From positions 1-34,206 of the forward strand of contig JAISAW010000007.1 in NCBI GenBank assembly GCA_031266515.1: a stretch of 34,206 nucleotides of DNA. The letters run 5' to 3'. Under the pieces are notes generated by a model, which was not told the origin of the DNA, did not search any database, and saw only the letters and a list, made by a program, of their open reading frames with translations. This DNA is from Eubacteriales Family XIII. Incertae Sedis bacterium. Lineage in GTDB: Bacteria; Bacillota; Clostridia; Peptostreptococcales; Anaerovoracaceae. Within the stretch, counting starts at the first letter, position 1. Every line of letters begins with the position of its first letter. Of this stretch, positions 6,741 through 19,433 are shown in pieces. The translations under genes were made by a program, and so were the position numbers.

Positions 6741-7448
6741 TCACTCACAGGCCTCTCCTGTTTTCCTTTTTTCGCATTTCTCCCACAGCGCGCAGCTTTC
6801 GCAGCCCGCGCGAGCACCGGTCACAGGATGATCGCTCACGCCGATTATTGCGGTGATGCTCTTCCTCGGCAGCATGATATGGGAATCGGTCACGGTCAGC
6901 CCTATCGCCCTCGCCCCGTCAAGTGCCCTCACCAATTTGTTTTGGACAGACAGATCGAGATCGCCGTATCCAGGCGAATACCTTCCCGTCAGATACACGC
7001 CGGAGCCACCTGGCCCCTCACCGGCAAGCCTTTCCTTTATGAGCCTCTCGGCCTCGTCTGCGTAGCATTCGGCAAGCTCCGACGCGGCGGTGTCAGCCAC
7101 CACGGCGTCAAACGGGTCTGCAGCAGACAGACGCCTCAAATGCGCATCCATCCCCGCTCCGAGCGTCAGCGCAAATACCGCCGCGCCCGTGCAGCCCTCC
7201 AGGTGCCTTTCGATATCGCGCCCTGCGAGGCCTGGCCCACCCGGCTCCAGCGAGACAGCATGACCGCGAGCGTGGCTGCGGACGACCTCAAACACCTTGT
7301 ATACCCACCTCGGAGAGGCGGCTCTTTCAACCTCGGCAAGCGCTCCTGCGATCCTCTTCGCTGCGGCCTCGTCAGGCAAAGCGTCCCCATACCCCAACCG
7401 ATGTATGAATACGTCTTCGTCTATTCCAGGTTTGTTTTCAAATATCAT
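6741..7448 (-). CDS. Stand-alone methionine synthase activation (reactivation) domain protein
   Basis: The 235-residue protein resembles the C-terminal activation domain of MetH, with the characteristic RYSPGYGDLDLSVQ and MLPRKSITAIIG segments that form the S-adenosylmethionine-binding surface. In Thermotoga maritima the equivalent split protein (TM0269) is needed to reactivate the truncated MetH TM0268. Here it sits between metF and the truncated metH, which strongly suggests the same job: reductive remethylation of oxidised cob(II)alamin. The C-terminus has a Cys cluster (CESCALWEKC, with a further Cys near the end) that is absent from E. coli MetH and could bind a metal or Fe-S cluster. 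Its ribosome site is weak, and the gap to metF is 27 bases, so translation may be coupled. Confidence 0.87.
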   Translation of the reverse strand: MIFENKPGIDEDVFIHRLGYGDALPDEAAAKRIAGALAEVERAASPRWVYKVFEVVRSHARGHAVSLEPGGPGLAGRDIERHLEGCTGAAVFALTLGAGMDAHLRRLSAADPFDAVVADTAASELAECYADEAERLIKERLAGEGPGGSGVYLTGRYSPGYGDLDLSVQNKLVRALDGARAIGLTVTDSHIMLPRKSITAIIGVSDHPVTGARAGCESCALWEKCEKRKTGEACE

Positions 7449-13404: not shown

Positions 13405-15957
13405 ATGCACAATGCGAAGATCGGCACAAACGGAAGTATGCCTGCAAAAAATTTCATCATGACAAGGCCTCGTGTCGAGACCATTCTGTCGAATGCTCTC
13501 GAAAAGCCTGTGACCCTCGTCTATGCAGGGGCAGGCTGCGGCAAGTCATACGCAGTGTATTCATACCTTTTGGACTCCGACATCCGCACAACTTGGATGC
13601 AATTGTCAACGTCAGATAACAACCCTTCAAGATTTTGGGAGACCATGTGCAACATGGTTTCCCAAGTCAATAGCGAACTTGCGGTGATGCTTGCCGGCGT
13701 CGGTTTTCCCGGGACAGGCGAACGCTACAAGATCTACTACGACTGCATATCTGACGTCATGAAGCCGACTGAGCACTACGCCTTCGTATTTGACGACGTG
13801 CATCTGATCACCGACCCTGAAGTGATGTCCTTTCTGCTGGCGCTCACAGAGACGCCTCTGCCGGGCGCGGCGCACGTATTCATATCGAGGGAAGAGACGA
13901 TCGCCCCTTACGATGTGGGTACGTCAGATGAGGACTTCGTGATCATTGACGAAAAAGATCTGCTTTTTACGAAAGTGGAAGTGGCCGACTACATGGCGAT
14001 GCTTGAAGTCGACGCTTCGCCCGCCCTCGTTGATGAGGTTTTCACAGCAAGCGAAGGGCTTGCGCACCTTGTCAACCTCGCGGGGAAGCTCGTAAAGAAA
14101 CGTCCCGGGGAGATACGCTACATCCGCGATGCGATAAAGCGCAATATCACAAAGCAGATCTACGACCAATTTTTCGAAGAGGCTTCAGAAGATCTGAAAA
14201 AATACTATGTCAGGCTTTCGCTGCTTGACCACCTCTCCGACAGTCTCGTCCATCAGCTGCCAGGGGGAGAGCAGCTGATAGGCGAGGCTGTGAAAAGGAC
14301 CTCGCTCATCAGGTACGACACATATATGGGCACCTACCATATACACCATATGTTTCTCGAATTCCTGCATACCAAAGAAGGGCTGCTCAGCGAAGAGGAA
14401 AAGGCCGAGACCTACGCTATAGCCGCGGCGTGGTGTGCAGACAACAATTACAAGCTCGAAGCGATGGGCTACTACGAAAAGACCAGCGACTACATATCCA
14501 TAATAGGCCTGTGCGACCACACGAAGCTGGACATGGGCATCCACGACGCGCTATACCTGTTCGACATCCTCGACCGCGCGCCGGAAAGCGTGTTTGACGA
14601 GATCCCCATAGCGCGCGTCCTCTACACGAAAGTATTGCTTTCACTGGGCAGGCTCGACGAAGTGATCGAGAACCTGAACGGGCACATAAGCGTGATGGAG
14701 TCAAAAGGCGAAGCCGGGGCTGACACAGCCACACTGGTGTGGCTGTACTGCAACCTGGGCTTCGCGAAAATACTCCAGTCGACAGATACAGGCGAATATG
14801 ACTTCGCATGGCTGTTCGAAAAAGCCGACGAGTATATGAAGAAATCCGGTATGGCACCACCCGATGAGCCGGTAAACTCCCCTATACTCTCATATGCATG
14901 CACAGTCGGGAACAGCCGAAAAGGCGACCCGGAAAAATACATAGAGGAAGTCGCCAGATCCATCCATTTCACAAACCATGTCCTGAACGGCTGTCTGTAT
15001 GGTTCAGACGACCTTGCGGTATCGGAAGTCGCCTACTACCGGGGAGACATGGCAGCCTGCGAGAGGTACGCCGTGCAGAGCTGCCTCAAAGCACGCGAAA
15101 GGGGTCAGTCATATATCGAAGGGCGCGCACTGTTCCTGCTCCTGCGCATGAACCTCGCCCGCGGCAGGTACCACAAGATCGTCGAAGTGTTGTCGCATTT
15201 TGACGAACTGGCGAAAAGGCATGGTATATATATGGAAAGGATCCAGCACGAAATCGTTCTCAGCTGGTACTACGCATCCATCGACGAGACGGATGATATC
15301 GCGCCGTGGGTCAAAAGTGCATTCCTTTCCTCAGATGAGGAGGCTTTCATAACAGGGCTTGAGGATATAGCAAAGCAGAAATACTACCTTTCTGAAAAGA
15401 AATACCACACGCTGCTCGCTTTCATGGACAGGCGGCCGATGTCGCACGGCATCCGGAAATTCATCATCGGCCGGATAGGGATACTCGTCAGCGAAGCCGT
15501 ATGCCATTACAATCTCAAAAACAAGGCGGAAGCGATGGAAGCGCTGAAACAGGCCTACGACCTGGCTGCCCCAAACGCCTTTGACATGCCGTTCATCGAG
15601 ATGGGAAACCATATGCGTTCTCTCGCAGGCGCCATGCTTCGAGAGAAAAAGTGCGATATCCCGCCGGAATGGCTTGAATTGATCCGCAGCAAGTCCGCGA
15701 CTTACGCCAAGCGCGTCGCCCACGTGAGGTCGTCGTACAGGCAGAACGCTGGCAAGAACGGCGACATACAGCTGACCCTCCGTGAAAAAGAAGTGCTTCA
15801 GGATATGGCGCAGGGGCTCTCGCGTGCAGAGATCGCAGTCTACAGAAACATCTCGGTCAACACTGTCAAGGCGATGCTTCAGATCATCTACGAGAAACTC
15901 GGTGCCGACAACAGCATGGACGCCCTGCGCATAGCAATATCGGAAAACCTTATCTAG
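13405..15957 (+). CDS. Large MalT-like LuxR-family transcriptional regulator
   Basis: This 850-residue cytoplasmic regulator has an N-terminal STAND-type ATPase with Walker A GAGCGKS (residues 42-48) and a Walker B-like YAFVFDDVHLI near 130. A long helical TPR-like middle and a C-terminal LuxR helix-turn-helix (about 785-845: LTLREKEVLQDMAQGLSRAEIA, then NTVKAMLQIIYEKLGA) follow. This is the architecture of MalT, in which ligand and ATP drive oligomerisation and promoter activation. The ligand is not inferable. The start is supported by GAGGGG five bases upstream. It lies upstream of, and co-oriented with, the ATPase and oxidoreductase genes and may regulate them. A short hairpin with a T-run follows the stop. 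Confidence 0.9.
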   Translation: MHNAKIGTNGSMPAKNFIMTRPRVETILSNALEKPVTLVYAGAGCGKSYAVYSYLLDSDIRTTWMQLSTSDNNPSRFWETMCNMVSQVNSELAVMLAGVGFPGTGERYKIYYDCISDVMKPTEHYAFVFDDVHLITDPEVMSFLLALTETPLPGAAHVFISREETIAPYDVGTSDEDFVIIDEKDLLFTKVEVADYMAMLEVDASPALVDEVFTASEGLAHLVNLAGKLVKKRPGEIRYIRDAIKRNITKQIYDQFFEEASEDLKKYYVRLSLLDHLSDSLVHQLPGGEQLIGEAVKRTSLIRYDTYMGTYHIHHMFLEFLHTKEGLLSEEEKAETYAIAAAWCADNNYKLEAMGYYEKTSDYISIIGLCDHTKLDMGIHDALYLFDILDRAPESVFDEIPIARVLYTKVLLSLGRLDEVIENLNGHISVMESKGEAGADTATLVWLYCNLGFAKILQSTDTGEYDFAWLFEKADEYMKKSGMAPPDEPVNSPILSYACTVGNSRKGDPEKYIEEVARSIHFTNHVLNGCLYGSDDLAVSEVAYYRGDMAACERYAVQSCLKARERGQSYIEGRALFLLLRMNLARGRYHKIVEVLSHFDELAKRHGIYMERIQHEIVLSWYYASIDETDDIAPWVKSAFLSSDEEAFITGLEDIAKQKYYLSEKKYHTLLAFMDRRPMSHGIRKFIIGRIGILVSEAVCHYNLKNKAEAMEALKQAYDLAAPNAFDMPFIEMGNHMRSLAGAMLREKKCDIPPEWLELIRSKSATYAKRVAHVRSSYRQNAGKNGDIQLTLREKEVLQDMAQGLSRAEIAVYRNISVNTVKAMLQIIYEKLGADNSMDALRIAISENLI

Positions 15958-15991: not shown

Positions 15992-16065
15992 GCCACTAAG
16001 CTGCGCTGGAGTGGGACAGACAAAACCCTTAAATAATTCTCCTACCCACCCGAAAACGTTTAGTG

Positions 16066-16071
16066 TATAAT
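16066..16071 (+). promoter_or_regulatory. TATAAT -10 box directly before the P-loop ATPase
   Basis: A perfect TATAAT is preceded directly by TG and lies ten bases before the ATG at 16082. Transcription would start about three bases before the start codon, which makes a nearly leaderless mRNA. There is no clear -35 box. Confidence 0.5.
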
Positions 16072-16081
16072 TCACAGCGAT

Positions 16082-16762
16082 ATGAGCCTCTATGACACTG
16101 AAAAGAAAAACTATGTATTCATCGGCGAAGCCGGCTGCGGCAAGACAGAGCTGTCGGTAAACCTCGCGCGGGAAATAGCGAAAGCAAATACAGGGGCAAA
16201 GACTGTCCTCATCGACATGGACCAGACCAAAGGCGACTACCGCAGCCGCGACTTCGGGGATGCGCTGAGCAAATACGGTGTGCGGACGGTATCCGGGCCT
16301 TCCACCTCAGATGCGCCCGTCGTGCCGCCGAACGTGCTCGTGGATCTCGCGGACAAGGATTCCTTCTGCGTGATGGACGTCGGGGGAAACAAAGCGGGCG
16401 CCGTGATGGTGGGGCAGTTTTCAGACAGGATCAACGAGGGAGACTGCGCTGTGTTCTTTCCTGTAAACCCTTACAGGAGCTTTTCAAACAGCAGGGAGAA
16501 TATCCTCCGCACCCTCGGCCAGCTTAAGACCGTTGGAAATATCCATACCGCCAGGCTGATCTGCAACCCAAACTTCGGCAGGGAGACAACAAAAGAGGAC
16601 GTCCTTGAAGGATACAGGAAAACCGTCGATATGCTTGAGGGCGCAGGACAATCGATAGACATCCTCGTAGTGCCCGGCTGGATCGAAATCACAGAAAATG
16701 AAGCCGCCAGGCACGGGCTGCCGGAGATACATATCATTGACCCCGTTATCGAATATATTTAA
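16082..16762 (+). CDS. SIMIBI-type P-loop ATPase (MinD/CooC/ArsA-like), unassigned role
   Basis: This 226-residue cytoplasmic protein has Walker A GEAGCGKT (15-22), a conserved LIDMDQTKGDYRSRD segment resembling the switch I Asp region of MinD/CooC proteins, a Walker B-like FCVMDVGGNKAG, and LICNPNFGRET, possibly the base-recognition Asn. The P-loop lacks the first Lys of the KGGxGKT deviant motif, which sets it apart from typical ParA/MinD. There is no Shine-Dalgarno; a TATAAT ten bases upstream suggests a near-leaderless transcript. It precedes a four-gene ferredoxin-linked oxidoreductase by 85 bases. A role as a maturation or assembly ATPase for that enzyme, as CooC serves CO dehydrogenase, is speculation. 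Confidence 0.8.
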   Translation: MSLYDTEKKNYVFIGEAGCGKTELSVNLAREIAKANTGAKTVLIDMDQTKGDYRSRDFGDALSKYGVRTVSGPSTSDAPVVPPNVLVDLADKDSFCVMDVGGNKAGAVMVGQFSDRINEGDCAVFFPVNPYRSFSNSRENILRTLGQLKTVGNIHTARLICNPNFGRETTKEDVLEGYRKTVDMLEGAGQSIDILVVPGWIEITENEAARHGLPEIHIIDPVIEYI

Positions 16763-18133: not shown

Positions 18134-18892
18134 GTGAAAAGGATGGAAAAAATTTACAGCAGACCTGTTTCCCTGAATCCCGTGGCATTCAACTACTGCC
18201 CCGGCTGTCTGCATGGAACATCGCAAAAACTCCTTTGCGATGTGATAGACGAACTTGGAAAACAGGAAGACACCATAGCCGTAATGCCTATAGGCTGCAG
18301 CACTATGGGGATGTTCGCATTTGACTTTGAATCGCTTGGCGCCTGCCACGGCCGCGCGCCCGCAGTTGCGACCGGGGTGAAGAGGACAGCTCCTGAAAAG
18401 CTGGTCTTTACCTATCAAGGGGACGGCGACATCGGATATATCGGTTTTTCGGAAATAATGCATGCGGCGAACCGCGGTGAGAATTTCACGGTGATTTTCG
18501 CGAACAACGGCACTTTCGGAATGACCGGAGGGCAGATGGCGCCTACCACGCTGATCGGGCAGAGGGCCACCACCGCCCCGCTGGGCAGAGACCCCTCATA
18601 CGGACAGGGCATGCCTATCCATATGAGCGAGCTCGTAGCTTCCCTTCCCCTCCCCGTATATGTGGAGAGGTGCTCGGTCGATACGCCGGCCCACGCCAAT
18701 GCGACAAGAAAAGCCATCAAAAAGGCGTTTGATATCCAGCTTGCCGGAAAAGGTTTTTCCTTTGTTGAGATCCTGACAAACTGCCCGACGAACTGGGGGG
18801 TCTCTCCCGTTCAGAGCATCGCCTGGATCAAAGAAAAGACGTACACGGAGTATCCTCTCGGCGTCTACAAAGATATAACACAGGAGGGATAG
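18134..18892 (+). CDS. 2-oxoacid:ferredoxin oxidoreductase, TPP-binding beta subunit
   Basis: This 252-residue subunit binds the TPP diphosphate through GDGDIGYIGFSEIMHAANR...NN, the classic GDG-x26-NN Mg-TPP signature. It has the N-terminal YCPGCLHGT Cys pair typical of this subunit, which helps ligate the proximal Fe-S cluster. It starts six bases after the alpha stop behind AGAGGTG, so the genes are translationally linked. No insertion or truncation was seen. Confidence 0.93.
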   Translation: MKRMEKIYSRPVSLNPVAFNYCPGCLHGTSQKLLCDVIDELGKQEDTIAVMPIGCSTMGMFAFDFESLGACHGRAPAVATGVKRTAPEKLVFTYQGDGDIGYIGFSEIMHAANRGENFTVIFANNGTFGMTGGQMAPTTLIGQRATTAPLGRDPSYGQGMPIHMSELVASLPLPVYVERCSVDTPAHANATRKAIKKAFDIQLAGKGFSFVEILTNCPTNWGVSPVQSIAWIKEKTYTEYPLGVYKDITQEG

Positions 18893-18896
18893 GACA

Positions 18897-19433
18897 ATGG
18901 AAGAAAGAATTTTTATATCGGGAGTCGGCGGCCAGGGTGCCATCCTCACCGGAAAACTCGCCTGCTACTCTGCCCTGCGCCGCGATCACTACGCATCGTT
19001 TCTTCCGACATATGGCGCGGCCCAAAGAGGAGGCGCGGCGTCATGCACGGTGGTGCTCTCAGACGAAGAGATACTGTCCCCCGTGGTGGAAAAACTGGAC
19101 ACGCTAATAGCTTTCAGCCAGAGCGGATACAATGAGGGCCTCCCCCGGCTGAAAGAAGGCGGCAAGCTCTTCGTCAACAGTTCGCAGGTGAAGGTTGACG
19201 AGGAAGCTGTGAACGGGAAATACAGGGTTTTCAGCCTGCCCGCAGACAAAATCGCAGACGAGCTCGGGGTGCGCAAGGTATCGAACATCGTGATGCTCGG
19301 GGCTTACGCCAAAAACGGAGGGGTGATAGCCCTGGAGGACGCCCAGTACGCCCTCGAAAAAAACCTCTCAAACAAGCCTGAGCTTCTCGAGCTGAACAAA
19401 AAAGCCCTCGTGGACGGCTACGAATACGTATAG
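18897..19433 (+). CDS. 2-oxoacid:ferredoxin oxidoreductase, gamma subunit
   Basis: This 178-residue subunit binds coenzyme A. It shows the family's N-terminal GVGGQGAILTGKLA and the conserved PTYGAAQRGGAASCTVVLSD segment. It starts four bases after the beta stop with AGGAGG in front. It ends the operon; a 13-bp GC-rich terminator lies 72 bases downstream. Together the four subunits make a complete soluble enzyme used by anaerobes for amino-acid fermentation or reductive carboxylation. Confidence 0.93.
   Translation: MEERIFISGVGGQGAILTGKLACYSALRRDHYASFLPTYGAAQRGGAASCTVVLSDEEILSPVVEKLDTLIAFSQSGYNEGLPRLKEGGKLFVNSSQVKVDEEAVNGKYRVFSLPADKIADELGVRKVSNIVMLGAYAKNGGVIALEDAQYALEKNLSNKPELLELNKKALVDGYEYV

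Follow-up and report, generated by a model that had tools for sequence, protein, structure and literature searches.

Why should a small P-loop ATPase be encoded directly in front of a 2-oxoacid:ferredoxin oxidoreductase (KOR)? The question is raised by a 34,206 nt stretch of contig JAISAW010000007.1 (hereafter the window), from an Eubacteriales Family XIII. Incertae Sedis bacterium, in which such a gene is separated by 85 bases from four KOR genes on the same strand (Table 1). The first-pass annotation had placed it between a MalT-like regulator and an oxidoreductase, and this arrangement is correct: the enzyme is a genuine four-subunit KOR of the VorB type, with an alpha subunit scoring above the NF005507 cut-off and the beta, gamma and ferredoxin genes adjacent. 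The regulator is local to the window; elsewhere, the recurrent gene before the ATPase is a butyrate-kinase homologue. The ATPase open reading frame is also real, but the extent originally given (16052-16762) includes upstream DNA, as the ATG at 16082 is the sole standard start and is preceded by an in-frame stop 21 bases upstream.

Table 1. Features of the ATPase-KOR locus; A3 is an alignment of 60 relatives of the ATPase.
Feature	Position	Strand	Evidence
LuxR/MalT-type regulator, 850 aa, upstream of ATPase	13405..15957	+	GerE 1.2e-11
TATAAT ten bases before ATG, possible promoter	16066..16071	+	Chance-level count; no -35
ATPase gene, 226 aa, predicted SIMIBI fold, partner of downstream KOR	16082..16762	+	ORF call, AlphaFold2 model, Foldseek/VIA matches
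P-loop GEAGCGKTE, residues 15-23, no signature lysine; family consensus GHYGSGKTE	16124..16150	+	60-relative alignment
Walker A' and Arg motif DMDQTKGDYRSR; consensus DLDIVNPYFRSR	16214..16249	+	D45, D47, R54 invariant in A3 (60 rows)
DVGG, Walker B position	16376..16387	+	D99, G101, G102 invariant in A3
NPNFGRETT, likely base-recognition loop; consensus NNTHLLRETT	16565..16591	+	N162, T169 at least 90% conserved in A3; role suggested by SIMIBI fold
KOR delta subunit, 2x[4Fe-4S] ferredoxin, 67 aa	16848..17051	+	Fer4_7 3.2e-12
KOR alpha subunit, VorB type, 352 aa	17069..18127	+	NCBIfam NF005507 422.7 bits, cut-off 399
KOR beta subunit, TPP and [4Fe-4S]	18134..18892	+	PF02775 2.4e-21
KOR gamma subunit	18897..19433	+	PF01558 2.6e-37

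Three of the four motifs of the window ATPase have the family form (GEAGCGKTE, DxD...RSR and DVGG), whilst the fourth diverges, reading NPNFGRETT against NNTHLLRETT. The P-loop had been described as non-deviant, and this is true of all 60 aligned relatives, none of which has a lysine at position 2 of the motif. The histidine of GHYG is present in 56 of these relatives and that of NNTH in 50, the window ATPase having neither. No cysteine is conserved, as no column of A3 has this residue in more than 14 of the 60 rows. A C-terminal M[RP]..W motif was found in 21/60 relatives, an undercount caused by tblastn segments ending early.

The view that the protein has no known annotation is upheld by profile searches, in which its Pfam and NCBIfam matches are generic and below threshold; the Pfam family CbiA (PF01656; MinD/ParA), with a cut-off of 25.4 bits, gives 20.8 bits for the window ATPase and 30.8 for one relative, L039. 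For the Clostridioides difficile member and the type-2 members, neither NCBIfam (E<=1e-5) nor Pfam (1e-3) gave a match, and a PDB sequence search with the window ATPase returned weak P-loop matches only. Neither a name for the family, in Pfam, NCBIfam or the literature searched, nor a paper describing the ATPase together with KOR, in that same literature, was found, most subscription papers lying outside the search. The gene is a member of an unnamed family of ATPases with a predicted SIMIBI fold.

This assignment draws on an AlphaFold2 model of the window ATPase, made with the 60 aligned relatives (pLDDT 89.2, pTM 0.88), which Foldseek places among SIMIBI NTPases, with HypB, BchL and NifH among the fold matches. 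The invariant G-K, D45, D47 and D99 of A3 likewise agree with a SIMIBI-class P-loop NTPase. VIA-align Z scores were 14.5 for Get3, 14.2 for FlhF, 14.1 for FtsY, 12.7 for BchL and 12.6 for both MinD and Cfd1; several SIMIBI subclasses therefore tie in the comparison, and the model does not choose among them. Membership of the deviant Walker A subgroup (MinD/Mrp/CooC/Get3) can be rejected, the signature lysine of (G)KGGxGK[ST] being found in 0/60 sequences. CooC itself is rejected on the absence of the conserved cysteine pair for Ni/Zn at the dimer interface, and on a neighbour that is KOR in 75 of the 80 loci surveyed below, not CO dehydrogenase; NifH and BchL on the lack of conserved cysteine ligands for a bridging [4Fe-4S] cluster; and Mrp/ApbC on the NCBIfam models NF041136 and NF008669, against which L039 scores 23.4 bits where 450 are needed and 17.2 where 348 are needed.

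Gene neighbourhoods across the GTDB genome collection were surveyed using an alignment of 23 ATPase members (A1), all from KOR clusters. An alignment was needed as the query, since a single-protein scan of the genome contigs with the window ATPase gave 11 pattern matches and no relative. An ATPase relative is encoded by 470 of at least 593 candidate stretches, and the best 80 of the 470 were analysed; because the query was KOR-linked and only the closest 80 were taken, this sample leans to close relatives, a leaning addressed by the tests of co-occurrence, co-duplication and distant members described below. Within these 80 loci, a six-frame HMM search found KorA on the same strand and within 4 kb of the ATPase in 75, and, by the same criterion, in 71 of the 72 whose 3' DNA extends beyond 1.5 kb. 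The ATPase precedes the ferredoxin and Kor genes in 72 loci and follows KorC in three. Conservation of the ATPase alongside vor/kor operons, which the first-pass annotation had proposed to check, is thus observed in this sample, and the contrary possibility that homologues occur mostly away from such oxidoreductases clearly fails. As for the five loci without KorA, three (L090, L118 and L130) meet a contig end within 65 bases, L136 has around 900 bases of sequence left, with no ferredoxin seen, and L145 is a fusion of FolC and the ATPase.

Many of the ATPase-KOR sets carry homologues of phosphate butyryltransferase (Ptb) and butyrate kinase (Buk), and CdaA, CdaR and GlmM occur at a greater distance; all five names are readings of the sequences made with no profile search. 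The sets are found in contigs named as Clostridioides difficile, Peptostreptococcus, Alkaliphilus, Soehngenia, Fusibacter and Oscillibacter, and also in contigs labelled Spirochaetaceae/Spirochaetales, Leptolinea and Actinomycetota. On one contig (C68 of genome G044; L065 and L198), an ATPase is detached from a KOR of the ATPase-linked clade yet remains near it, around 13 kb away.

The distribution of the two systems across genomes follows the same pattern. Among 61 related genomes, 36 have a VorB-type KOR (threshold E<=1e-80), and 35 of these also encode the ATPase, as against one of the 25 without such a KOR; in three of the 35 (G022, G033 and G053), the ATPase is truncated by a contig end and was detected in a separate search. 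Within the window's own family, leaving out the window genome, the corresponding figures are 11/12 and 1/24 (Fisher 2.3e-7, uncorrected for relatedness). The exceptions are G034, in which a KOR but no ATPase was found, and G017, a MAG 83% complete, in which the reverse holds. All ten ATPases in seven named genomes lie beside KorA (two in Fusibacter, three in Sinanaerobacter and one in each of the other five), and the same genomes have four more VorB-type KorA without the ATPase, two of them in C. difficile.

A tree was built from 52 KorA sequences of the loci retrieved, a subset of the KorA in these genomes; all 35 ATPase-linked proteins fall into a single clade of 43 members (support 98), the other eight members of which all come from genomes with an ATPase elsewhere; the nine KorA outside the clade are all unlinked, the midpoint root being for drawing only. 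Distances in the ATPase and KorA trees are correlated (r 0.86, n=31 clusters, 0/2000 permutations). When 113 clusters of 135 ATPases were used, the ATPase correlated with each KOR subunit at r 0.88-0.91, the subunits correlating among themselves at 0.87-0.95, and partial correlations for the contact subunit were unstable between subsets of these data. It is well supported that the ATPase is dedicated to KOR, sitting beside it, duplicating with it and evolving with it. The link to the oxidoreductase originally suggested has hence gained strong support from neighbourhood, co-occurrence, co-duplication and mirrored trees, whereas the Fe-S loading suggested along with it is weakened by the absence of a conserved cysteine.

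Nor is the gene an orphan, as it had been called. The window genome (a 1.79 Mb assembly, 82% complete) encodes three paralogues, at 44, 38 and 29% identity, each followed by a Fd-KorA-KorB-KorC set, such that all four ATPases have a KOR of their own. The neighbours of the paralogues include CoA-transferases, an amino-acid permease, an IlvD-type dehydratase and related genes, which fit 2-oxoacid metabolism. The window ATPase lies in a divergent branch with two of the paralogues and one relative, in which D.DQTK replaces D.DIVNPYF and GEAG replaces GHYG, and the window KorA lies in the matching branch of the KorA tree. In all, the genome has 13 VorB-type alpha genes (from 14 matches, one of them weak), nine of which have no neighbouring ATPase. 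Spread over contigs C6, C45, C65, C91, C93, C100, C122, C132, C134 and C146, these represent an unusually large KOR expansion; one KorA of this genome (L190:1859-2866) is in two overlapping pieces in different frames, and so is broken or mis-assembled.

More distant members were sought throughout the phylum. Matches at 1e-3 were found in 369/398 genomes, a figure not taken as a family count because many of the matches, at around 1e-4 to 1e-6, probably represent P-loop proteins of other kinds. From this search, 12 genomes with a best match of only around 95-134 bits provided 13 places, at 11 of which the ATPase is directly beside a KorA from another subfamily (31-35% identity to the VorB query); the gene order there is ATPase-KorA-KorB-KorC, with the ferredoxin last where seen. 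These members represent a second, remote ATPase subfamily ahead of a different KorABC-Fd operon. Of the two other places, one has a PFOR-sized gene in between, and one lies around 4 kb from KorA. A PFOR-sized gene (around 1170 aa) adjoins the type-2 ATPase-KorABC set in L216 and L217.

In some Bacillota lineages, the ATPase is fused in frame to a Mur-ligase-domain protein, here labelled FolC (L145, L162, L165, L168, L169, L173, L174 and L176). All five of the fusion genomes tested have a KOR elsewhere. G236 has the order folC-ATPase-Fd-KorABC, and the Mur-ligase domains of the fusions recur there in the gene that precedes the ATPase; given that folC and the ATPase are separate neighbours here, the fusions seem to have arisen through later merging of the two.

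In strict anaerobes, both CO2-fixing reactions and the oxidative Stickland fermentation of branched-chain and aromatic amino acids draw on KORs, enzymes that are difficult to obtain in an active state. To our knowledge, they are generally regarded as being assembled by the housekeeping Fe-S machinery alone. On balance, we think it probable that the ATPase would act as an ATP-driven assembly or maturation factor dedicated to four-subunit 2-oxoacid:ferredoxin oxidoreductases (KOR/VOR). It would bind a KOR subunit or sub-complex, and the binding or hydrolysis of ATP would shift the bound part into a conformation that allows completion or restoration, whether of the [4Fe-4S]/TPP sites or of the alpha-beta-gamma-delta assembly. 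Such a mechanism would be of the chaperone type proposed for CooC with CO dehydrogenase, with the ATPase itself carrying no metal. The broader proposition, that Bacillota KORs, along with those of some contigs labelled Spirochaetes, Chloroflexi or Actinomycetota, have a maturation or activation ATPase of their own, is advanced more tentatively, as something quite possible.

A number of SIMIBI NTPases serve as maturases of the metalloenzyme they are encoded with, an example being CooC, a proposed conformational chaperone driven by ATP (PMC6006190), which appears to be the best analogy for the mechanism of the KOR ATPase. Both are SIMIBI-class ATPases, comparable in size, whose genes accompany those of an Fe-S oxidoreductase, and both are present for some, not all, members of the enzyme family. 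However, CooC has the deviant Walker A GKGGVGKTT together with Cys112 and Cys114, whereas the KOR ATPase has a P-loop of the GHYGSGKTE type and no conserved cysteine, and it differs in partner enzyme and in cofactor, that of KOR being without nickel.

The enzyme side is illustrated by HpdDEFG, a VOR-like KOR from the partner enzyme family, likewise with Ptb and Buk neighbours. When made in E. coli, its Fe-S beta subunit is weakly held, and the enzyme was assayed after chemical Fe-S reconstitution, with a kcat of 37 per s and no further proteins added, according to the main text of PMC13285125, which makes no mention of an ATPase, P-loop or chaperone. These properties fit an assembly role for the ATPase and argue against its being a catalytic subunit; yet the reported activity without a protein of this type also counts against maturation. 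So do the KORs with no ATPase nearby (9/13 in the window genome, and G034), the Fe-S cysteines that linked and unlinked KORs have in common, the genome G017 and the FolC fusions away from KOR. PMC13285125 also links a VOR of C. difficile to a kinase acting on propionate, isobutyrate and isovalerate, and the ATPase-containing cluster L085 is probably this locus. A special Fe-S site served by the ATPase can be ruled out, as linked and unlinked KorB and ferredoxins share the same cluster cysteines: the Fe-S cysteines are identical in KORs with and without a neighbouring ATPase, and four cysteine columns are invariant in linked KorB.

The genomic linkage (75/80 loci) and mirrored trees would equally accommodate an ATPase that reactivates or regulates the finished KOR, as a MeaB-like gatekeeper or an energy-charge sensor tuning oxidative against reductive flux. 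The non-deviant P-loop, and the frequent position of the gene between an acyl kinase and KOR, where ATP yield meets KOR flux, speak for such a role; but the ATPase is without a sensor domain and the genomic data fit assembly just as well, and we regard it as unlikely. HypB and MeaB are, like the KOR ATPase seems to be, partner-specific accessory NTPases with a non-deviant P-loop, HypB also being in the Foldseek list. However, most NTPases of this type are GTPases that serve other enzymes and recognise the base through an NKxD-type motif, whereas the KOR ATPase has an N-N/S-T/P motif.

Because no cysteine is conserved, neither a CooC-like metal carrier nor a NifH-like electron donor is likely. 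A carrier delivering metal or Fe-S clusters to KOR, in the sense of Mrp/ApbC/NUBPL or CooC, would be consistent with the fold, including the match to Cfd1, with weak MrpORP profile similarity, and with the NUBPL family PF10609, which matches 16 of the 23 ATPase members at E<=0.01 (L039 passes its cut-off). It is nevertheless improbable, as the ATPase falls far below the NCBIfam MrpORP and ApbC cut-offs and has neither the signature lysine nor, among 60 relatives, any conserved cysteine, the deviant Walker A and paired cysteines of CooC being absent. An ATP-driven electron-transfer component of KOR would suit the very low potential of the electrons required for reductive carboxylation by the enzyme, as well as the fold matches to BchL and NifH. 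This reading is very improbable, in view of the missing cysteine ligands for a bridging [4Fe-4S] cluster and of the VOR-like KOR reported in the main text of PMC13285125 to be active without added ATPase.

The existence of copies apart from KOR (L059, L061, L064, L065 and the FolC fusions) could suggest a passenger, kept by operon structure and unrelated to KOR in function; we find this hard to credit, given linkage in two diverged KOR subfamilies and under several phylum labels, along with co-loss and co-duplication, and several of the unlinked copies sit in genomes still holding a VorB KOR. Least probable of all is a ParA/McdA-like protein positioning KOR complexes in the cell, for although the MinD/ParA profile matches distantly and some ParA-like positioners also lack the signature lysine, no recurrent partner adaptor gene occurs in the neighbourhoods inspected and nothing suggests spatial clustering of KOR.

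If the broader proposition of a maturation or activation ATPase is true, such a protein would help to explain the difficulty of making active KORs in E. coli, and would have been overlooked because only generic ATPase profiles match it. The protein offers a testable missing component for KOR assembly or control, and the work suggests what a gene present in C. difficile, Peptostreptococcus, Oscillibacter and numerous gut MAGs may do.

The start of the window ATPase had been thought nearly leaderless, with no Shine-Dalgarno (SD) sequence and a TATAAT ten bases before the ATG. Both sequence observations are accurate, the duplex energy being -0.3 kcal/mol. However, TATAAT occurs seven times in the window against an expected 7.26, which is chance frequency, and a consensus scan found no -35/-10 pair at the site. 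Seven of the 19 starts examined are without a clear SD (duplex weaker than -2.5), so its absence here is nothing special. An SD-like site with a duplex energy of -2.8 or lower precedes each of the 40 homologue starts examined, which come from 40 of the 80 loci, ruling out a conserved leaderless start; one at the window ATPase is possible, and would be a local feature.

Elsewhere in the window, on the reverse strand at 6741-7448, a small separate ORF between MetH- and MTHFR-like genes resembles what we take to be a split-off MetH activation domain.
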